From Verrucomicrobia bacterium UBA7008 (lineage in GTDB: Bacteria > Verrucomicrobiota > Kiritimatiellia > RFP12 > UBA1067), in NCBI GenBank assembly GCA_002449695.1, contig DJXI01000042.1, positions 1-10,613 on the forward strand: DNA of 10,613 nt. Reading direction: 5' to 3'. Below are positions 637-10,134 of the stretch, piece by piece. The notes below the pieces were generated by a model. The model saw only the letters and a list, made by a program, of their open reading frames with translations, searched no databases and was not told the origin of the DNA. The first letter of the stretch is position 1. The number at the start of each line of letters is the position of its first letter. The translations under genes and the position numbers were made by a program.

Positions 637-666
637 AACGACATCATGCGTTTAAGGTTCAAATCG

Positions 667-3600
667 ATGAATGTCAAATTCAAGACCGTTTTGGGCGTCT
701 CCGGCGCCGCCCTGGCGTGCCTCGCCGCGCCGTGCGCCCGCGCGCAGGAGGGCGAGGCCCCGGCCGCCGCCGCCGAGGAAAACAAGGTCGACGAGGCGCT
801 CCAGGCCGAGATCCGCTATGTCGAGGCGCTGATCGACAGCGGCTTCTCGGACTTCGCCGAGCCCGTCATCGCGGCGACCAAGAAGAAGTGGCCCGAGTCC
901 GAGACGATGTTCTTCGCCATCGAGATCCGCGGCCTCCTCGCGCTCCAGAAGTTCGCCGAGGCCGAGGCCAAGATCGCCGCGCTCCCCGACCGCAAGAGCT
1001 CGAAGTACTGGGCCGCGCGGCTCGAGGTCGCCAACAACTTCTTCGCGCGCGGCCACAAGTCGGAGTGCGTCAAGATCTACGACGAGTTCTTCAAGACGTT
1101 CGCGGACTTCAACAAGCTGCCGAAGGAGCTGAAGGAGTTCTACCGCAACGCGAGCTATTCGTGGGGCCAGATCCTCGTCGGCGACAAGCGCTTCGACGAG
1201 GCGGTGAAGGTCTACGACAACCTCCTCAAGCTCATCAACAAGCGCGGCACCGACGAGGAGGAGGGCATCTGGTGCAACGTGGCGTGCGAGACGGCCGAGA
1301 TGTACCTGCACCTCGCGACCGGCAAGCCGGACCCGAAGTCGCGCGCGCCCTACCTCACGCCCGCGAAGAAGATCGTCGACGACCTGCTCTGGATGCAGGG
1401 CCAGCCCGTCTACTTCGGCCGCGCCATCGCGATGAAGGCCAACATCGAGCTCCTCAGGGGCGACGTCGCCAAGGCGCAGGCCACGATCGACGACTACATG
1501 GACCAGCTCGTCGAGCTGCACCAGCAGATGGCGGAGGTCGATCCCGACGGCCGCAAGGGTCTCCTGCGCCAGTCGCCGATGCCGCTGTGCCGCTACATGC
1601 TCGCCGACATGCTCTGGAAGGAGGCGCAGGCCGAGGCCAAGAAGCCGAAGCGCGACGACGAGCGCGTGAAGGCGCTGCTCTTCGGCGAGAAGCTCAAGTC
1701 GGGCAAGCGCAACGGCGCGGGCGCCTTCAACCACGCGCTCAACGTGTTCATCAAGTACCCCGAGTCGACGTGGGCCGCGCAGGCGGGCGAGATGAGCGAG
1801 GCGATCCGCGAATTCGCCGAGAAGACGTACGACGCCAAGATCAAGACGAACATCACGGCCGACCAGATGGCGAAGGTGCGCGCGATGCAGTTCCAGGGCG
1901 CGCGCGCGAAGCTCGCCGAGGGCGACTACGAGGGCGCGATCACGGACTATCTCGACGTGCTCGCGCGCTTCCCCGAGGTCAAGGAGTCGATCGACGCGAT
2001 CGAGGGCCTCGTCAGCGCGTATCTGGGGCTGATCGTCCGCAAGAAGGGCACGCCCGAGCAGCTGGAGGCCTGGCGCATGGACGCGGACGCGGTCGAGGGC
2101 TACCTCTCCGAGCGGTTCGCGGGCAGCCGGGACAAGGTGCTCATGACCGAGGCGGGCGACGCGACGCTGCGCGTGGCGGCCAAGGAGAAGGAGCGCGGCG
2201 AGATCGCGCGCGCGGATGCCCTCTACAAGGCGTTCCTCTCCAACTACCGCGCGCACGTGAACGCGCCGATCACGGCCGCGTCGATGGCGGGCGAGGCCCA
2301 GCGCGCCGAGAAGTGGGAGGACGCGCTCGCGCTCTACGAGATCGTCGACCGGTACTACAAGAAGTCGCCGTACTACGCGACCGCGCTCATCCAGATGTCG
2401 GTCTGCCACGAGAAGCTCGGCAACCGCGCGGCGGCCATCGAGGCGCTCAAGCGCTACTGCGAGGTCGAGACGGCGCCGCTGAAGAAGACGCAGTCGCAGA
2501 TGCAGCTGGCGAAGCTCTACCAGAAGAACGGCCTGGACATCTTCAAGTCGGCGGAGACGAACGAGACGGAAGAGGCCGTCAACAGGCAGCTCGCGGCCGG
2601 CAGCGCCCAGATCATCCGCGGCATCCAGCAGTTCGTGGATTTCGCCAAGACGGCCGACGAGAAGCTGAAGGACCCGAGCGTGAGCGCCAAGGACAAGGAG
2701 CAGTACGCGAAGCTGAAGGAGGGCGCGCTCTACCTCGCGGGCGACTGCTGGGGCCGCCTCACCAAGCCGGCCGACAAGCTGGAGGCGTTCCGCAAGCGCG
2801 CGACCGCGGCGCTCGAAGAGTACGTCCGGCAGTATCCGCAGGGCCAGTACGCGAAGGCGGCGTACGTCAAGCTCGGCACGTTCTACACCGCGCTCGGCGA
2901 CGTGGCGAACTCGAAGAACGCGCTCGACCGCCTCGCCCGGGAGTTCCCGGACGCGAAGGAGACGAAGGACGCCAAGCCGCGCCTCGCCAAGAGCCTCATC
3001 GAGATGGGTATGCGCAAGGAGGGCACCGAGATCTACGCCGAGATGCTGCGGCTCGACGGCAACTACACGGCCGGCCAGTTCGTGAACGCGGGCGAGGCGC
3101 TGATCGAGGCGCGCAGCTGGGATCTCGCGGACCAGGCGTTCGAGAAGGCCATCGCCAAGGCGGGCGCGAACCAGCCCTCGACCGTCGCCAAGGCGCGCAT
3201 CGGCAAGGCGAAGGCGCTCTTCAAGCAGGGGCCGAACTCGTACGCCGAGGCGCGCAGCCAGATCGACGACTTCCTGGCGGACGACAAGATGTCGAAGCTG
3301 AGCATCGCGGCGGACGCGAACCTGCTGCTCGTCGAGATCGCCTCCGAGCAGGGCCGCACCGAAAAGGACGACAACCTGCGCAAGAAGCACTTCAGCGCGG
3401 CCGTGGGCGCGGTCAAGAAGCTGCGCGGCTACTGGAAGAAGAAACCGCAGGAGGAGCAGGACACGGTCGACCTGATGAGCGCGGACGTCGTCATCCGCCG
3501 CATGGCCGCCGAGGACGCGATGAACCTCAAGGAGCAGGCGCAGGAGTCGTGCGCGCGCGCGGCCGCGATGCTCCAGACGTTCCTGCAGTCGCGCGGCGTG

Positions 3601-3966
3601 ACGGAGACGAACCCGATCGACAAGATGACGGCCGGCCAGGTCCGGAACCTCGAGCGCTGCTACGCGACGATGATTCCGCTCTTCTCGCGCCTCGGCGACG
3701 AGCACGCCGTGAACGTGCTGAAGTTCGGCCAGGAATACCTGAAGTACTTCCCGAACGGCAAGGCGCGCACCGAGGTGATCAACTGCATCAACCGCGCGAA
3801 GGCCTCCGGCGCGAAGCTGGACGACGCCGCGCCGGCGGCCGGGGCGCCCGCGCCCGTCGCGGAGGAGGAGGAGGACGCGGCGGAGCCCGCGCCCGCCCCG
3901 GAGCCGGCCCCCGCCGAGGAAGAAGACGCGCCCGACGAGGAGGAGGCGGAAGAAGCCGCCGAGTAA
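667..3966 (+). CDS. Large secreted TPR-repeat protein
   Basis: This gene encodes a 1099-residue exported protein. Residues 1-26 form a signal peptide: a short basic start (MNVKFK), a hydrophobic Ala/Leu/Val core and an A-R-A cleavage site before Gln27. From about residue 30 to 1045 the protein is almost entirely amphipathic helix pairs of TPR type, for example the stretch around 2820-3040, which resembles YbgF/CpoB and BamD repeats (…YPQGQYAKAAYVKLG…). Residues ~1046-1099 are a low-complexity Ala/Pro/Glu tail, very acidic. The ATG at 667 was chosen over the in-frame ATG at 646 because it has AAGG nine bases upstream, while 646 lies about three bases from the predicted transcript start. The repeats suggest a periplasmic scaffold or adaptor. 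Being the first gene of an ExbB/ExbD cluster, it may serve a CpoB-like role. No enzyme motif is seen. Exact function unknown; cysteines at the signal peptide (18, 23) do not form a canonical lipobox. Confidence 0.9.
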   Translation: MNVKFKTVLGVSGAALACLAAPCARAQEGEAPAAAAEENKVDEALQAEIRYVEALIDSGFSDFAEPVIAATKKKWPESETMFFAIEIRGLLALQKFAEAEAKIAALPDRKSSKYWAARLEVANNFFARGHKSECVKIYDEFFKTFADFNKLPKELKEFYRNASYSWGQILVGDKRFDEAVKVYDNLLKLINKRGTDEEEGIWCNVACETAEMYLHLATGKPDPKSRAPYLTPAKKIVDDLLWMQGQPVYFGRAIAMKANIELLRGDVAKAQATIDDYMDQLVELHQQMAEVDPDGRKGLLRQSPMPLCRYMLADMLWKEAQAEAKKPKRDDERVKALLFGEKLKSGKRNGAGAFNHALNVFIKYPESTWAAQAGEMSEAIREFAEKTYDAKIKTNITADQMAKVRAMQFQGARAKLAEGDYEGAITDYLDVLARFPEVKESIDAIEGLVSAYLGLIVRKKGTPEQLEAWRMDADAVEGYLSERFAGSRDKVLMTEAGDATLRVAAKEKERGEIARADALYKAFLSNYRAHVNAPITAASMAGEAQRAEKWEDALALYEIVDRYYKKSPYYATALIQMSVCHEKLGNRAAAIEALKRYCEVETAPLKKTQSQMQLAKLYQKNGLDIFKSAETNETEEAVNRQLAAGSAQIIRGIQQFVDFAKTADEKLKDPSVSAKDKEQYAKLKEGALYLAGDCWGRLTKPADKLEAFRKRATAALEEYVRQYPQGQYAKAAYVKLGTFYTALGDVANSKNALDRLAREFPDAKETKDAKPRLAKSLIEMGMRKEGTEIYAEMLRLDGNYTAGQFVNAGEALIEARSWDLADQAFEKAIAKAGANQPSTVAKARIGKAKALFKQGPNSYAEARSQIDDFLADDKMSKLSIAADANLLLVEIASEQGRTEKDDNLRKKHFSAAVGAVKKLRGYWKKKPQEEQDTVDLMSADVVIRRMAAEDAMNLKEQAQESCARAAAMLQTFLQSRGVTETNPIDKMTAGQVRNLERCYATMIPLFSRLGDEHAVNVLKFGQEYLKYFPNGKARTEVINCINRAKASGAKLDDAAPAAGAPAPVAEEEEDAAEPAPAPEPAPAEEEDAPDEEEAEEAAE

Positions 3967-4015: not shown

Positions 4016-4789
4016 ATGAAGAAACTCATCATGGCGATGGCAATCCTGCTCGCGGCTTCGTCCGTCTGGGCGATCCAGGGCACGATCAAGACGGCCACGG
4101 ACACGAAGAAGGGCGACATCAAGTGGCAGAGCCGCGCGAAGGCCTACCTGATCGCGATCAAGAGCAAGGGCGGCGCGGACATCAACGCCGAGTATCCGCT
4201 CGACGACGTGGAGGCGCTGGACATCGACAAGCCCGCCAACTACGACAAGCTCGTGCAGATGGTGACGGCCGGCCAGGGCGCGCAGGCGATCGCGGGCCTC
4301 ACCAAGATCGTCCAGGACTACAAGATGCTCGTCTGGGACAAGCCGGCGGGCCGCTACCTCGTCGAGGCGTACCTCGCGGCGAACAACGCGCAGAAGGCGT
4401 TCGAGACCGCGCAGTCGATCATCTCCGACGACAAGTCCGCCGCGTGGTCGGGCGAGCTCGCCCCCGCGTACTGGCAGGCGCTGCTCAAGCTCGGCAAGCA
4501 GCAGCAGCTCGAAAACTGTCTGCGCAAGGCGACGGAGTCGGGCGACCGCGCCTCGAGCGCGGCGGCGCTGTCGATGCGCGGCGACATGATCCTCCAGACC
4601 GAGGGCGACACGCCCGACGCCTACCGCAGGGCGCTCACCGACGCGTATCTGCGCGTGGCGCTCATGTACACGGACGAGCCCTGCCGGGCGGCGCGCCAGA
4701 CGGCGCTCCTGAAGGCGGCGCAGTGCTTCGACAAGCTCAACATGGCCTCGCGCGCCGAGGGCCTGCGCAACCAGGCGAAGGCGCTCTGA
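4016..4789 (+). CDS. Small secreted helical-repeat protein, unknown function
   Basis: The product has 257 residues. Residues 1-19 are a clear signal peptide (MKKLIMAMAILLAASSVWA, cleaved after V-W-A). Residues ~20-70 look beta-rich (a GTIKT…GDIKWQSRAKAYLIAIK pattern ending in a short acidic stretch). Residues ~75-257 are amphipathic Ala-rich helices compatible with degenerate TPR repeats. The start is fixed by AAGGAG at 4001-4006, nine bases upstream. It lies 49 bases after the large TPR gene, with an A/C-rich, G-poor spacer. I do not recognise a named family. A periplasmic partner of the large TPR protein or of the ExbB/ExbD complex is likely from position alone. Confidence 0.85.
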   Translation: MKKLIMAMAILLAASSVWAIQGTIKTATDTKKGDIKWQSRAKAYLIAIKSKGGADINAEYPLDDVEALDIDKPANYDKLVQMVTAGQGAQAIAGLTKIVQDYKMLVWDKPAGRYLVEAYLAANNAQKAFETAQSIISDDKSAAWSGELAPAYWQALLKLGKQQQLENCLRKATESGDRASSAAALSMRGDMILQTEGDTPDAYRRALTDAYLRVALMYTDEPCRAARQTALLKAAQCFDKLNMASRAEGLRNQAKAL

Positions 4790-4850: not shown

Positions 4851-5660
4851 ATGAACAAGTTCAAGAAATCGCTGATGGCTCTCATGATCGTTATCGGAAC
4901 CTGCACGGCCCCCGTCGCGGCGCTGAGCTCGTTCGGACAGGAACTGGAAGGCGCGGACGGCCAGATCGTCGACGCCAACACGAAGACCAACTCCCCGAAG
5001 AAGGGCGGCGGCTTCTACGACATCGTCTTCGGCTCGGGCGTGGTCGGCATGCTGCTGTGGTTCGCGCTCTTCGGCGACGGCATGCTCGCGATCTACTTCT
5101 CGATCGACTGCCTGATCATGATCAAGCCGGAGAAGCTGATGCCGGCCAAGCTGATCGACAAGGTGCAGGAGGCGATGGGCCAGGGCGACGTCGTCGCGGC
5201 GATGGAGGCCTGCCAGAACACGCCGAGCGCGATGTCCAACATCCTGACCGCCGCGTTCCAGCACGTGGAGGAGGGCTTCGACGTCATCCAGGAGGCGGTG
5301 AACGCGGCCTCGGACCTCGAGCAGGAGAAGATGATGCAGCGCCTCAACTGGGTGTCGGTCTGCGGCAACCTGGGCCCCTCGCTCGGCCTGCTCGGTACGG
5401 TGCAGGGCATGATCCTGACGTTCCAGGCGCTCGCGTCCGGCGGCGCCGGCGACGCGGCCGCGCTCGCGAACTCGATCGGCCAGGCGCTCTGGACGACGGC
5501 CGGCGGCCTTGTGGTGTCGATCCCGTCCATCACCGCGTTCTACTCGCTGCGCAACAACGCCAACCGCCTCATCCTGCGCATGACCGCCGTGACGATGGAG
5601 TTCCTGAACGGACTCAGGAACGTCTCGGTCGAGGGCGAGGAAGCCGTCGCCGAGGCCTGA
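4851..5660 (+). CDS. MotA/TolQ/ExbB proton-channel family protein
   Basis: A 269-residue inner-membrane protein of the ExbB/TolQ family, which with ExbD conducts protons and powers a periplasm-spanning partner. Residues 1-24 form a signal-peptide-like hydrophobic start. Three membrane segments follow at about 61-90, 166-192 and 205-232, separated by the large cytoplasmic loop (~92-165) typical of the family. The signature GLLGTVQGMI (179-188) carries Thr183 and ALWTTAGGL (212-220) carries Thr216; by alignment from memory these match the channel threonines Thr148 and Thr181 of E. coli ExbB. The ribosome site AAGGAA (4837-4842) fits the ATG at 4851. The length is normal for the family. It is followed 32 bases later by the first exbD. 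TolQ is an equally valid family label; the partner genes leave Ton versus Tol undecided. Confidence 0.93.
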   Translation: MNKFKKSLMALMIVIGTCTAPVAALSSFGQELEGADGQIVDANTKTNSPKKGGGFYDIVFGSGVVGMLLWFALFGDGMLAIYFSIDCLIMIKPEKLMPAKLIDKVQEAMGQGDVVAAMEACQNTPSAMSNILTAAFQHVEEGFDVIQEAVNAASDLEQEKMMQRLNWVSVCGNLGPSLGLLGTVQGMILTFQALASGGAGDAAALANSIGQALWTTAGGLVVSIPSITAFYSLRNNANRLILRMTAVTMEFLNGLRNVSVEGEEAVAEA

Positions 5661-5692: not shown

Positions 5693-6142
5693 ATGGGAAG
5701 AAGGCCACAGGAAAATCCAGCGCTGGACATGACGCCGATGATCGACGTCGTGTTCGAGCTCATCATCTTCTTCGTCGTCACCCTCACGGAGGCGCAGAAG
5801 AAGGATGAGACGATCGAGCTGGAGGACGGGCAGCACGGCGTGGTGCTCACGCCGGACGAGCTGCCCGCGCAGCACATGCAGATCGACGTCGCCAAGAACG
5901 GACGCATCTCGATGGGCAACGTCACGCTCCTCCCCGACGAGATCAACCGCCGGGTGAAGGAAAAGAAGGCGCGCTGGGGCGAGTTCCCCATCCTCATCCG
6001 CGCCGACTTCGAGACCCCCCACGCCGCCGTGCACCGCGTGATGGACGCGTGCACCTCGGCGGGCATCTGGAAGCTCTCGTTCATGGCGATCGGCGAGGAC
6101 AAGACCCACGAGCGCAAGCGCATCAAGAAAGTGAGGAAGTGA
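5693..6142 (+). CDS. ExbD/TolR family protein, first copy
   Basis: A 149-residue ExbD/TolR protein: a short cytoplasmic N-terminus, one membrane helix at about residues 16-33 and a periplasmic domain from ~40 on. The motif MTPMIDVVF (13-21) contains Asp18, the membrane aspartate that corresponds to the proton-carrying Asp25 of E. coli ExbD. The C-terminus ends in a strongly basic tail (residues ~136-149, rich in Lys/Arg), which I would not expect as part of the usual fold. GAGG (5682-5685) precedes the start. The N-terminal ~30 residues match the next gene at 29 of 30 positions, and 80 bases are identical in DNA, while the periplasmic domains are not obviously alike. It is separated by a single base from the second copy, suggesting coupled translation and a mixed ExbD pair in the stator. 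Confidence 0.92.
   Translation: MGRRPQENPALDMTPMIDVVFELIIFFVVTLTEAQKKDETIELEDGQHGVVLTPDELPAQHMQIDVAKNGRISMGNVTLLPDEINRRVKEKKARWGEFPILIRADFETPHAAVHRVMDACTSAGIWKLSFMAIGEDKTHERKRIKKVRK
5703..5782 (+). repeat. 80-base perfect direct repeat, copy 1 (in first exbD)
   Basis: This block is identical base for base to 6154-6233 and lies 451 bases upstream of it. It covers codon 4 (second base) to codon 30 of the first exbD, that is the cytoplasmic lead and membrane helix. The base just before (A versus C) and just after (C versus A) differ. Confidence 0.95.
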
Positions 6143-6143
6143 C

Positions 6144-6560
6144 ATGGCGCGCCGGCCACAGGAAAATCCAGCGCTGGACATGACGCCGATGATCGACGTC
6201 GTGTTCGAGCTCATCATCTTCTTCGTCGTCACCATCAAGCAGGAGGACCTCTACACGCGGCTGAACGTCAACCGTCCCGCCCCGGCGTCGAGCGCCTCCT
6301 CGTCCCCGTCCGACGACATCTCGGTCACGATCGAGATCGGCCGCCGCTACGACGGCAGCGCGCAGGGCGTCATCCTCTACAACAAGCGCGAGGTCAAGCG
6401 CGCGGAGCTGGACCAGTACCTGCGCGAGATCGCCCACACCTCGACGAAGACCCCGATCATCGTCAAGTGCGACGACGCAAGCCCCCACAAGGCGCTCGTC
6501 GACGTGCTGGACATCTGCTACAAGAACAAGCTCTACAGCGTGAGCGTGTTCTCCATGTAA
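6144..6560 (+). CDS. ExbD/TolR family protein, second copy
   Basis: A 138-residue ExbD/TolR protein. The cytoplasmic lead and membrane helix (residues 1-30) are the same as in the preceding gene except Ala2 for Gly2, including the membrane aspartate Asp18. From residue 31 the periplasmic domain is different: a Ser/Pro-rich linker (about 43-56), then a compact beta/alpha domain (VTIEIGRRYDGS … VILYNKREVKRAEL … TPIIVKCDDASPHKALVDVLDIC) with the usual ExbD pattern. GAGGA in the end of the preceding gene (about 6132-6136) serves as ribosome site. Two ExbDs with different periplasmic domains could form a heterodimer in the ExbB pore; this is inference, supported by the family's known ExbD dimer. 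Confidence 0.92.
   Translation: MARRPQENPALDMTPMIDVVFELIIFFVVTIKQEDLYTRLNVNRPAPASSASSSPSDDISVTIEIGRRYDGSAQGVILYNKREVKRAELDQYLREIAHTSTKTPIIVKCDDASPHKALVDVLDICYKNKLYSVSVFSM
6154..6233 (+). repeat. 80-base perfect direct repeat, copy 2 (in second exbD)
   Basis: Second copy of the block at 5703-5782, in the same codon phase relative to its own gene. Recombination between the two copies would remove 451 bases and leave one intact, in-frame exbD with the second copy's periplasmic domain. Confidence 0.95.
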
Positions 6561-6575: not shown

Positions 6576-8291
6576 ATGGCTGAAGAAACGGAACTGGAGG
6601 AAGAGCTCGTCATCGACCTTGACGAGATCAGGAAGAAATACGAGGTCAGGGGCTTCTTCCGTCGCTTGGCCGACATGTTCTCCGGCCTCGGCAAGCCGCA
6701 CAACACGCGCGAATACAAGCTGGCGCGCATCGAGGTCCAGCGCCTGATGGCGCCGCTCATCGCGGTGCTCGCGGTCGTGATTCTCGTCACGGCGCTCATC
6801 GTCATCACCGCCGTGACGGGCCAGAAGAAGGAGACCATCGAAGTCAAGATCGCCCACGCCGAGGAGGAGACGCCGGAGCTGGAGGAGCAGGTGGACGAAG
6901 AGCCGCCGGACGACATCGAGCCGCCGCCGATGGAGGAGGTGGAGATCATGGTCGACACGCCCACGCCCGGCCCCGTCTCGGAGATCACCCCGGTCGCGGC
7001 CCCGCCCGCCACGCAGGTGTCGGTCAAGCCCGCGCCGCAGGATACGGTGGCGTTCGTCGATTCGCCCGTCAAGATGAAGTCGATGACGGGTTCGCGCACG
7101 CCCGGCTCCATCGGCGCGGCGACGAAGGGCGGCGCCGGCTACGGCGACGCGATCACGGAGGCGACGGTGCTGAAGTGCCTGTGGTGGCTCAAGGCCAGGC
7201 AGGACAAGGACGGCTCGTGGGGCGGCGGCTCCTCGCGCCTCGCCAACACGGCGCTCGCGATGCTGACGTACCTCGCCCACGGCGAATATCCCGGCTCGCC
7301 CTCGCCCTACCGCAAGGACTTCGGCCCCGTGGTCGAGAAGGGCGTGCAGTGGCTCGTCGACGCGCTCGTGCCGCCGACCTCGCAGAGCCCCGCCAGGATG
7401 AAGGGCGCGGACGGCAACGAATACGCCTTCCTCATCGCGACGTACGCGCTGTGCGAAGCCTACGGCATGACGAAGAACCCGAACTGCAAGGAGACGGCGA
7501 TGGTCACGCTCGAGCGCATCATCAAGGGGCAGTCGCCGACGGGCGGCTGGGACTACAAGATCAACCCCAGCTCGACGCGCGACGACCTGTCCTTCGCGGG
7601 CTGGGCGCTCCAGGCGCTGAAGGCCGGCAAGATGGCGGGCCTCCACCCGGAGGGCCTCGACGAGTGCATCAAGAAGGCCGTCAAGTGCCTCAAGACGCGC
7701 AGCTTCCACCAGGACTCCTTCACCTACTGCGCGAACGCGCGCCACCACCGGGGCCTGACCGCCACGGGGTGCCTTGCGATGCAGCTCTTGGGATTCAGCT
7801 CGGAGCCCGAGGTCCGCAAGGCGCTCGACTACATGCGCGAGTGGCACCCGTCGTTCAAGAAGGGCGCGACCGTGGCCGACGGCGGCGTGGGCGACAACAT
7901 CGCCAAGGACTGCCCCTCGCCGCAGTACTACTGCTACTACGCGACGCAGTGCAAGTACCAGGCGGGCATGCGCCAGGGCGCGACGAAGCCGGACGAGCAG
8001 TCGTGGCAGAAGTGGAACGCCGAGATGAAGAAGCTCTACCCGTCGGCCATCAAGGACCTTCCGGACAAGGTCAAGGACCACACGGGCAAGGAGCACAAGC
8101 AGGGCTATTTCGAGAACGAGGACACCTGGTCGTCGCGTCCCGTGATGGACACCTGCCTCGCCGCGCTCCAGCTGATGGTCTACTACCGCTACCTGCCCAC
8201 CAGCCAGCTCAAGTCCACCGAGGAGGAGGACAAGTCCGGCGCGGAGGCGGCGGCCGGCAAGGATGACGTCGGCGTCGAAGTCGACATCTGA
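6576..8291 (+). CDS. TonB-topology protein with prenyltransferase/squalene-cyclase-like toroid domain
   Basis: The 571-residue product has an acidic then basic cytoplasmic tail (1-58), one membrane helix (59-81), a periplasmic linker (82-190) that is first Glu/Pro-rich and then Pro/Val/Thr-rich, and an alpha/alpha-toroid domain (~191-545). The toroid shows QW-like repeats at 209-216 (QDKDGSWG) and 319-326 (QSPTGGWDY), further helix repeats at 336-348 and 392-406, and the C-terminal series YYATQ (454-458), WQKWN (477-481) and VYYRYLP (535-541). From memory this series is typical of planctomycete prenyltransferase/squalene-oxidase-repeat proteins. The DxDD motif of hopene cyclases is absent, so terpene cyclisation is unlikely. 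All 11 cysteines lie in the toroid. The first 190 residues match TonB/TolA layout, but no TonB C-terminal domain is present. AAAGGAG (6563-6569) sets the start, 15 bases after the second exbD. Probably the force-transmitting partner of the ExbB/ExbD complex; what the toroid binds is unknown. Confidence 0.88.
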   Translation: MAEETELEEELVIDLDEIRKKYEVRGFFRRLADMFSGLGKPHNTREYKLARIEVQRLMAPLIAVLAVVILVTALIVITAVTGQKKETIEVKIAHAEEETPELEEQVDEEPPDDIEPPPMEEVEIMVDTPTPGPVSEITPVAAPPATQVSVKPAPQDTVAFVDSPVKMKSMTGSRTPGSIGAATKGGAGYGDAITEATVLKCLWWLKARQDKDGSWGGGSSRLANTALAMLTYLAHGEYPGSPSPYRKDFGPVVEKGVQWLVDALVPPTSQSPARMKGADGNEYAFLIATYALCEAYGMTKNPNCKETAMVTLERIIKGQSPTGGWDYKINPSSTRDDLSFAGWALQALKAGKMAGLHPEGLDECIKKAVKCLKTRSFHQDSFTYCANARHHRGLTATGCLAMQLLGFSSEPEVRKALDYMREWHPSFKKGATVADGGVGDNIAKDCPSPQYYCYYATQCKYQAGMRQGATKPDEQSWQKWNAEMKKLYPSAIKDLPDKVKDHTGKEHKQGYFENEDTWSSRPVMDTCLAALQLMVYYRYLPTSQLKSTEEEDKSGAEAAAGKDDVGVEVDI

Positions 8292-8293
8292 CG

Positions 8294-9520
8294 ATGCCGT
8301 TTCCCGTCTTTCTCGCGCTCAAGTACCTCCGGCCGAAGCGATCCGTCGCTTCGGCCATTACGTGCGTCTCCGTCCTCGGCGTGATGCTGGGCGTCGCCGC
8401 CGTCATCATCGTGCGCAGCGTGATGACGGGCTTCGGCGACATCTGGGAGGAGAAGATCCTCGACTTCAAGCCCCACGTCTCGCTCGTGCCGCGCGCGGGC
8501 GCGACGGTCATCACGGGCGAGGAGGCGCTCGCCGCGCGGATCCGCGCGCTGGACGGCGTCAGCGCCGTCACGCCCGAGATCGACACGCGCGTGCTCCTGT
8601 CCGCGCACGGCCGCGTGCTCGCGCCCGTCATTCTCGGCGTCGACGGCGAGGCGTTCACGCAGGCCTACCGCACCGGCGCGCCCGTCGCGGGCACGTTCGA
8701 CCTCGACGGCGACGCGCTCGTCATCGGCCGCCACGTCGCGCGCCAGCTGGGCGTGACGGTCGGCGACGAGGTGACCGTCTACTCGCCCCGGACGCTCGCC
8801 GCGCGCGACGAGGTGTTCCTGCCCGTCAAGTGGCGCGTCGCCGGCATCTTCGCCTGCGGCCAGTACGAGTACGATTCCGGCTACGTCGTCGCCTCGCTGT
8901 ACAACGTCCGCGAGCTGATGGGCATGGACGAGGGCGTCTTCGCCATCCACGTCAAGACCGACGCGCCGGCCGATCCGGCGAAGTTCGCCCGGGTGACGGA
9001 CGGCCTCGCCGCGCTCGCGCCGCGCCTGCGGGCCATCACGTGGCAGGAGGCCGACAGCGAGCTCTTCAGCGCGCTCGCCGTCGAGAAGAACATGACGGCG
9101 ATCCTCCTCTTGCTCATCTCGCTCGTGGCGCTCTTCTGCGTCATGAACACGCTCCTCGTGCTGACCGTCCAGAAGACGCCGGAGATCGGGCTCATGAAGG
9201 CGCTCGGCTTCCCGAAGCGCCAGATCATGGGCGTGTTCATGGTCCACGGGCTCGTCCAGTGCACGGCGGGCATCGCGCTGGGGCTGCTGGTCAGCTGGGC
9301 CGTCCTCTCCAACCTTCAGAACATCGTCGTCTTCCTCGCGCGCCTGGGCATGCAGGTCTTCCCCGAAGCCATCTACGGCCTTGCCGAGATTCCGCACCGC
9401 CTCATCCCGTCCGACATCGTCTGGACGGTGGCGTTCGTCTACGTCTTCGGCATCCTCGCCGCGCTCGTCCCGGCGTCGCTCGCCGCGTTGAAAGATCCCA
9501 TCAAGGCCCTGAACGAATGA
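8294..9520 (+). CDS. LolC/LolE-family lipoprotein-releasing permease
   Basis: A 408-residue inner-membrane permease of the LolC/LolE (FtsX-MacB superfamily) type, which with LolD extracts lipoproteins from the inner membrane for delivery to the outer membrane. The N-terminus (LALKYLRPKRS then a helix at 21-43 and VMTGFG) is the LolC/E pattern. A large periplasmic domain spans ~45-265, followed by helices at ~267-292, 312-337 and 373-396. The coupling segment EIGLMKALGFPKRQI (297-311) between the second and third helix is the characteristic contact to the ATPase. The length matches the family. The start lies two bases after the previous stop with no clear ribosome site, so coupled translation is likely. 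Only one permease gene is seen, so it would act as a homodimer or pair with a protein encoded elsewhere; LolC versus LolE cannot be decided. Confidence 0.92.
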   Translation: MPFPVFLALKYLRPKRSVASAITCVSVLGVMLGVAAVIIVRSVMTGFGDIWEEKILDFKPHVSLVPRAGATVITGEEALAARIRALDGVSAVTPEIDTRVLLSAHGRVLAPVILGVDGEAFTQAYRTGAPVAGTFDLDGDALVIGRHVARQLGVTVGDEVTVYSPRTLAARDEVFLPVKWRVAGIFACGQYEYDSGYVVASLYNVRELMGMDEGVFAIHVKTDAPADPAKFARVTDGLAALAPRLRAITWQEADSELFSALAVEKNMTAILLLLISLVALFCVMNTLLVLTVQKTPEIGLMKALGFPKRQIMGVFMVHGLVQCTAGIALGLLVSWAVLSNLQNIVVFLARLGMQVFPEAIYGLAEIPHRLIPSDIVWTVAFVYVFGILAALVPASLAALKDPIKALNE

Positions 9521-10134
9521 CGATCCTGACCGCCACCGACCTGAAGAAGAGTTTCCGCCTGCCCGGCCAGCCGCCGGTGGAGGTCCTGAAGGGCGTGAAC
9601 CTGTCGGTCGCCGCGGGCGAGAAGGTCGCCATCGTCGGGCGCTCCGGCGCGGGCAAGTCCACGCTGCTGCACATCCTCGGCGGCCTCCTCAAGCCGACGT
9701 CCGGCACCGTCGCGCGCCCGTCGAACATCGGGTTCGTCTTCCAGGCCTACCATCTGATGCCGGAGCTGACGGTCCTTGAAAACGTCCTCCTGCCGACGAT
9801 GGCGCGCCGCCGCACGCCGGACGCGCCGGTGCGCGCGCGCGCGCTGCTGGACAAGGTCGGCCTCGCGGCGCGGCTCGACCACCTGCCGGCGGAGCTCTCG
9901 GGCGGCGAGCGCCAGCGCGTCGCCCTCGCGCGCGCGCTCGTCACGGAGCCGGACATCGTCTTCGCCGACGAGCCGACGGGCAACCTCGACGCGCTGACGG
10001 GCGCGGACATCCTGAAGATGCTCGCCGACCTCTCGGCGGGCGGCCGGACGGCGCTCGTGATGGTGACGCATTCGGTCGAGGCCGCCGCGATCTGCGACCG
10101 CCGCCTCACGCTCGCCGGCGGCACCCTCGCCTGA
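9517..10134 (+). CDS. LolD-type ABC transporter ATPase
   Basis: A 205-residue ATP-binding protein, energising the permease encoded just upstream. All core motifs are present: Walker A GRSGAGKST (41-49), Q-loop Gln76, signature LSGGERQR (127-134), Walker B IVFADEPT (147-154), D-loop GNLD (155-158) and switch His185. ENV (88-90) and HILGGL (52-57) match LolD. It is shorter than the usual ~230 residues mainly because the segment between SGTV (62-65) and the Q-loop is about 17 residues shorter than I recall for E. coli LolD, and because the C-terminus ends soon after the last strand. The ATG overlaps the permease stop by four bases (ATGA), with AAGG at 9503-9506. It is the last gene of the cluster. 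Confidence 0.94.
   Translation: MTILTATDLKKSFRLPGQPPVEVLKGVNLSVAAGEKVAIVGRSGAGKSTLLHILGGLLKPTSGTVARPSNIGFVFQAYHLMPELTVLENVLLPTMARRRTPDAPVRARALLDKVGLAARLDHLPAELSGGERQRVALARALVTEPDIVFADEPTGNLDALTGADILKMLADLSAGGRTALVMVTHSVEAAAICDRRLTLAGGTLA

Follow-up and report, generated by a model that had tools for sequence, protein, structure and literature searches.

A toroid-headed candidate force transducer encoded beside ExbB and ExbD genes in Kiritimatiellia

Directly downstream of one exbB gene and two exbD genes, Verrucomicrobia bacterium UBA7008 (a gut-dwelling member of the Kiritimatiellia) encodes a protein of 571 amino acids that probably works as a force transducer like TonB or TolA. In this reading, it is driven by a dedicated ExbB-ExbD1-ExbD2 motor, and its periplasmic head is an alpha/alpha toroid. 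The gene lies in "the window," by which we mean the whole stretch of DNA that we analyzed: all 10,613 nucleotides of contig DJXI01000042.1, from a 2.52-Mb assembly that is 82% complete. Few loads of Exb-, Tol-, or Mot-type motors are known: TonB, TolA, and parts of the flagellar and gliding machineries. Our reading draws on features of the protein (a single membrane helix, a strand pattern that resembles a D-box, the predicted toroid, and between helix and toroid a linker of about 100 residues), on its linkage to motor genes, which extends over many families of the phylum, and on the replacement of the toroid by a PA14-like head in the same operon within the genus.

A gap of 15 bases separates the second exbD gene from the toroid gene, and the protein consists of a single membrane helix, an acidic, proline-rich linker of about 100 residues, and then the toroid. 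An earlier note on this DNA had described this layout and spacing from the sequence alone, and sequence analysis and structure prediction agree with it. An alpha/alpha toroid is predicted with confidence for residues ~190–540, and it has QW-like repeats. As that note also stated, the protein lacks the DxDD motif of the cyclases (we saw none by eye, and there is none inside the toroids listed for its relatives). It also lacks the C-terminal domain of TonB: a Pfam-type profile search found no match to TonB_C, and the toroid is predicted in its place. A vWA C-terminal domain was not found by profile search or by structure prediction either. A canonical TonB is ruled out by the missing TonB_C; the TonB_C and Plug matches of this genome are on C66. 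Shortly past the membrane helix is a strand-like pattern, ETIEVKIA, that resembles the D-box of TonB. The D-box is the strand that is captured by the ExbD dimer (excerpt of PMC10907165), at ~10 to 15 residues from the helix (excerpt of PMC12905483).

To describe the distribution of the toroid, we used two sets of loci. The first comes from whole genomes: in a sample of the phylum, 49 of 115 genomes had some match, and the loci are a selection of these matches plus some other exbD loci, with linkage counted on the fetched stretches. The second set is 80 loci on named contigs. The homologues carry the names Lentisphaerae, Kiritimatiellae, or Kiritimatiellia bacterium. Gut samples from goat, yak, sheep, cattle, or other herbivores are the source of many of the related named contigs. 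Among the named-contig loci, ExbD is encoded just upstream on the same strand in 63 and not in 14, while 3 begin at a contig end. The full six-gene set of TPR1, TPR2, ExbB, ExbD1, ExbD2, and toroid is present in 51 of the 80, so the toroid does co-occur with exbB-exbD-exbD elsewhere. Our sorting placed four named-contig rows among the short toroids; three of these (L099, L121, and L122) are fragments of anchored toroids with frameshifts, and the other (L131) begins at the edge of its contig.

We sorted toroids as anchored if they had a hydropathy of at least 2.0, a linker of 85–200 residues, and fewer than 760 amino acids. At the whole-genome loci, ExbD is encoded within 2 kb upstream of 32 of 60 anchored toroids but is adjacent to 0 of 20 short toroids that lack the long linker (a few of the 20 are fragments). 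Five whole-genome rows fall outside both sorts and are not in these counts (L193, L151, L160, L175, and the second copy at L040); two of them, L151 and the second copy at L040, do come after ExbD. Among linked rows, the linker between helix and toroid has a length of 96–131 residues in 30 of 32 from whole genomes and of 97–109 residues in all 62 from named contigs.

A phylogenetic tree included 19 of the 80 named-contig loci and excluded L178 as well as every row with fewer than 200 residues aligned. In this tree, 15 of 18 short toroids form one clade of 16 rows, which includes one open reading frame (ORF) that was sorted as anchored. This clade has a support of 98 (Shimodaira-Hasegawa-like approximate likelihood ratio test). 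Next to it is a small group with the exb-linked L149, L150, and L151 plus two short rows; the remaining short row, L048, is placed among the anchored toroids. The earlier note had held that toroids without the helix and without linkage to exbBD would speak against its idea. Such toroids exist, but they are the distant short ones, most of which are in a clade of their own. We therefore rejected the view that the toroid proteins here are merely secreted enzymes. In the Planctomycetes, we found one plasmid match, which is a short toroid protein, with no exbB or exbD among the six features of an incomplete gene table. One row set was limited to loci with two ExbD genes and used every second named-contig locus; L197, L198, L049, and L270 were dropped from it as repeats, and L236 was dropped as well.

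In four genomes of the window's genus, the same operon encodes a PA14-like head, of the sugar-binding type, where the toroid would be; the toroid was not found in these four genomes. The window's own genome has a PA14-like paralogue from the family that fills the slot in those operons. We identified its head by its predicted fold, which is like that of PA14 sugar-binding domains (the RTX adhesin of Marinomonas and the Epa/Flo adhesins). Unlike those domains, the PA14-like head gives no match to Pfam PA14 and is carried by a membrane-anchored transducer chassis. The toroid and PA14-like proteins are alike in their N-terminal part and in having an SPxxM motif and, at the C-terminus, a strand-like tail. 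The PA14-like family has SPVTM at the place that matches SPVKM in the window protein; SPxxM...R precedes the toroid, and R174 is invariant across an alignment of 31 members.

The chassis of a PA14-headed protein is 67% identical to a toroid chassis versus 40% to the own-genome orphan PA14 chassis. Also, the free tree divides the PA14 chassis in two, and the topology with one clade is found in 0% of 200 bootstrap trees. In an approximately unbiased (AU) test, a single clade of PA14 chassis was not rejected (p = 0.325; the long-branch rows L135, L240, and L110 were removed beforehand, and L252 was added). The identities favor a scenario in which the PA14 head would have been exchanged by recombination within the gene and not as a whole gene; the AU test is also compatible with one clade.

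Genomes of family f9 (G035, G050, G087, G192, G198, G204, G224, G239, G255, G258, and G270) have at least 8 or 9 matches to the PA14-like family each, mostly in ORFs of ~370–400 and 620–660 amino acids, which is a large expansion. The single-contig genome G081 has two closely similar ExbB-ExbD1-ExbD2-PA14 operons (L143 and L144), and one of them adjoins genes that look prepilin-like by eye.

The tail has an acidic residue and alternating valine or isoleucine at the extreme C-terminus. We discarded a loose pattern for it that also matched 35/100 ExbB and 50/193 ExbD proteins and used an end-anchored pattern instead. This pattern is present in 30/31 (first set) and 57/60 (second set) of the exb-linked toroids with a complete C-terminus, in 11/27 and 12/15 of the unlinked toroids, and in 31/31 of the PA14-like family alignment. 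As background, it matches 1/100 ExbB, 3/193 ExbD, 2/122 TPR1, 2/150 TPR2, 0/52 LolC/E, and 1/56 LolD proteins, and 244 of 4131 ORFs of at least 150 codons. Of the linked toroids, the first set has one without the pattern (L156), and the second set has three: L121 and L122, which are frameshifted, and L111, whose tail slightly exceeds the length that the pattern permits. We dropped the claim that the tail binds the motor because it also ends the radical-SAM-toroid and GH95-toroid proteins described below.

The earlier note called the toroid terpene-cyclase-type, and this holds by sequence profile but not clearly by fold. The window protein scores 13.8 bits against PF13243 (SQHop_cyclase_C), below the gathering cut-off of 26.1; still, 28 of the 31 aligned members match this profile at E ≤ 0.01. 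Among the families listed in the comparison of folds, sugar epimerases and GH76 come nearly as close to the toroid as the terpene cyclases do. Like class II terpene cyclases such as squalene-hopene cyclase (PF13243/PF13249), the protein has QW-like repeats and an alpha/alpha toroid fold. Unlike them, it has one toroid only, no DxDD, and a membrane anchor with a periplasmic-type linker. The absent DxDD and the lone toroid rule out membership in the class II cyclases.

Could the toroid be another kind of enzyme? It might be a membrane-tethered periplasmic enzyme that acts on sugars, polysaccharides, or isoprenoids, so that the motor sets its position or access and the head catalyzes instead of gripping. 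Nine residues (Tyr283, Glu294, Tyr327, Asp337, Ser339, Tyr384, Tyr451, Tyr454, and Tyr455) are kept in 72–78 of 78 anchored toroids and are mostly retained in 18 short toroids too, as expected of an active site. At E ≤ 0.01, Pfam's Pec_lyase matches 10 of the 31 aligned members and GH88 matches 2, and the likeness in fold to sugar epimerases and GH76 also fits, as do two odd cases of fusion to GH95 and radical-SAM proteins. On the other hand, the window protein passes the cut-off of no curated enzyme family, it is not a class II cyclase, and a binding-type PA14-like head can fill the same slot. We consider catalysis to be possible but rather unlikely.

Several observations weigh against force transduction by the toroid protein. 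First, the S-x3-H motif (SHLS core) in the membrane helix is present in 0 of 92 relatives on the window's side of the family; elsewhere it is present in 17/22 exb-linked and 10/24 unlinked homologues. (All named-contig rows were assigned to the window's side without checking the order of each row.) Where the motif is absent, docking to ExbB must differ or be absent; these relatives have a conserved N-terminal stretch ahead of the helix. Second, only about half of the anchored toroids have the D-box-like pattern. For the strict alternating pattern, the best place is 6–11 residues past the helix in 72 of the 136 anchored toroids, and 25-residue windows further out have it in 80 (offset 25), 8 (offset 50), and 4 (offset 75), so a second strand-like stretch lies behind the first. 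Third, of the 60 anchored toroids at whole-genome loci, 28 lack an ExbD gene in the 2 kb upstream (for one of these, the stretch has only 255 bases there). These unlinked copies are scattered over the tree, as would be the case if they were duplicates that had moved out of the operon. Fourth, the toroid with its strand tail is not exclusive to the motor chassis: with other N-termini, it is fused to a radical-SAM/SPASM protein (L160:10409-12709) and also to a GH95 protein (L175:19-3057) that lies at a contig edge. Finally, a glycan as the ligand of the toroid (see below) is suggested by the PA14 substitute only.

The lost SHLS core and the many unlinked copies are also what might be seen if the protein were an uncoupled, membrane-anchored periplasmic scaffold that is co-transcribed with the motor of another transducer, and the same genome does have both a TonB and a vWA transducer beside motor genes. 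However, direct adjacency to the motor genes, a gene order that is fixed over many families, the near-constant length of the linker, the D-box-like strand, and the in-place replacement of the toroid by another head on a like chassis all argue for coupling. A scaffold is unlikely. It is quite improbable that the system serves the LolCDE-like transporter next door, with a motor-driven toroid that aids lipoprotein or lipid movement through the envelope. In favor of this role, a LolC/E-like gene comes next in 46 of the 55 exb-linked named-contig loci that extend more than 1.5 kb downstream, and in all of the counted loci of the window's genus (18/18 toroid and 4/4 PA14). Against it, among one set of linked loci, Lol genes are found only at L042 and L049 (the window's family) and are absent from L033–L038, L040, and L041 (other orders) and from L045 and L046 (same order), so Lol is not a core part.

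Among described systems, the vWA force transducers that Williams-Jones et al. reported in 2025 from PVC and other bacteria (PMC12204202, as excerpted) come closest: the gene neighbors are the same and the head is different. In that excerpt, vWA proteins are predicted to be a motor load; they are encoded 3' of genes for a TPR protein, a TolQ-like protein, and two unlike TolR-like proteins, and they have a transmembrane segment, a linker of ~100 residues, and a vWA domain at the C-terminus. The toroid gene is similarly downstream of TPR, ExbB, and two ExbD genes, and its product has a transmembrane helix and a similar linker. In contrast to what is described there, the window's system has a toroid or PA14-like head, no SHLS core on the window's side of the family, a conserved C-terminal tail, two TPR genes, and, in the window's family, Lol genes. 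Like TonB and TolA, the toroid protein has a lone N-terminal helix, a candidate D-box-like strand, a proline-rich linker, and adjacent genes of the ExbB/ExbD type. Unlike them, it has no alpha-beta C-terminal domain of the TonB_C or TolA kind and, on the window's side, no SHLS core; also, the genome has a separate TonB.

The earlier note suggested that a link between such toroids and Exb force had not been described. This holds for toroids: we did not find toroid- or PA14-headed transducers among the matches listed from the open-licence literature in PubMed Central, and the word "toroid" does not occur in the main text of PMC12204202. It does not hold for the kind of system, as vWA-headed proteins with the same neighbors are in print there. 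We read the toroid-headed protein as a head-swapped new form of these recently described non-TonB transducers. Overall, the observation in the earlier note is confirmed and its interpretation is partly supported; we infer the coupling, the ligand, and the role.

The genome of the window also has a system of the vWA kind as excerpted in PMC12204202: contig C71 (L137, 2154-6729) encodes an ExbB-like protein, ExbD (one seen), a TPR protein, and a membrane protein with a VWA domain. In the window's genus, YfbK-type vWA proteins (L263:6503-8956, L262, L264, and L265) match the linker part of the chassis profile. Pfam was run on those from L262, L263, and L264. The L263 protein has SPITMK (by eye) and ends in PEVQVEVDI; this tail is lacking in L262 and L264. 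A gene of ~275 amino acids lies ahead of each YfbK-type vWA gene, and two such genes (at L263, and at L059 near a toroid) had no Pfam match.

All genes in Table 1 form a single run on the plus strand.

Table 1. Genes of the window and parts of the toroid protein.
Feature	Positions	Strand	Basis or remark
TPR1, 1106-aa (amino acid) TPR protein, acidic Ala/Pro-rich C-terminus	646..3966	+	conserved upstream of motor genes
TPR2, 257 aa, signal-peptide-like N-terminus	4016..4789	+	weak YbgF-type match, TIGR02795, E 0.0019
ExbB/TolQ-like motor subunit	4851..5660	+	PF01618, 3.7e-25
ExbD1/TolR-like subunit	5693..6142	+	PF02472, 1.1e-22
ExbD2/TolR-like subunit	6144..6560	+	PF02472, 2.1e-20; 90-nt (nucleotide) repeat in common with ExbD1
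Toroid-headed transducer (putative), 571 aa	6576..8291	+	
N-terminal part (predicted cytoplasmic), residues 1-58, conserved SREYKxAxxELQRLxAP	6576..6749	+	
Membrane helix, residues 59-81, without S-x3-H	6750..6818	+	
D-box-like strand ETIEVKIA, residues 86-93	6831..6854	+	pattern search, literature
Conserved SPVKM...R segment, residues 163-174	7062..7097	+	
Alpha/alpha toroid, residues ~190-540	7143..8195	+	structure prediction
Conserved strand-like C-terminal tail DDVGVEVDI, residues 563-571	8262..8288	+	
LolC/E-like lipoprotein-releasing permease	8294..9520	+	TIGR02212, 1.4e-73, 248 bits, under the cut-off of 362
LolD-like ABC ATPase	9520..10134 (start approximate)	+	PF00005, 1.9e-33

The repeat shared by exbD1 and exbD2 (5703-5792 and 6154-6243) is 97% identical, and its first 80 nucleotides are identical. 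It spans most of the start and the membrane helix, and the periplasmic halves have diverged. We would guess that gene conversion keeps both helices matched to one ExbB ring.

Other arrangements were seen among the relatives. At L151:2791-10278, TPR-ExbB-ExbD is followed by a 1084-residue protein with PD40 beta-propeller repeats and then a toroid. In family f19, three membrane-anchored toroids are in tandem (L032:6676-11610), with broken copies in L147, beside a gene that looks galE-like by eye. These tandem toroids lack the C-terminal tail, and there is no exbD in the fetched stretch.

If the toroid protein is a force transducer, then the motor would bind it via the membrane helix and via capture of the D-box-like strand by ExbD, and proton flow would then pull on the linker. 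The conserved tyrosine, aspartate, and glutamate residues of the toroid may make up a pocket with which it grips a ligand on the side of the outer membrane or cell wall. This ligand would most likely be a glycan, since a sugar-binding-type PA14 head can replace the toroid. The TPR proteins and the C-terminal tail might hold or regulate the assembly. The whole system would act more like Tol-Pal, by pulling on the envelope, than like TonB, by gating receptors, because the TonB of this genome (on C66) is beside the sole TonB-dependent receptor plug that we found.

More broadly, there is perhaps an even chance that the Kiritimatiellia and their kin have a proton-driven envelope machine in which one TPR-ExbB-ExbD1-ExbD2 motor works on a common chassis with an exchangeable head: a toroid, a PA14-like lectin, or a YfbK-type vWA domain. 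The chassis would comprise the N-terminal helix, the membrane helix, the D-box, the linker of ~100 residues, the SPxxM motif, and the C-terminal strand tail, and the heads would have been swapped in place during evolution, which would change what the cell grips and pulls. If so, the load of the motor would be a plug-in module, as the exchange of the toroid for a lectin-type head at one operon position in congeneric genomes would show. The natural swaps of heads would be material for separating the parts of a transducer that dock to the motor from those that choose the target. There would also be a candidate function for many proteins of the Kiritimatiellia and Lentisphaeria, relatives of the toroid protein that databases name as "prenyltransferase/squalene oxidase repeat" or "terpene cyclase/mutase family" proteins.
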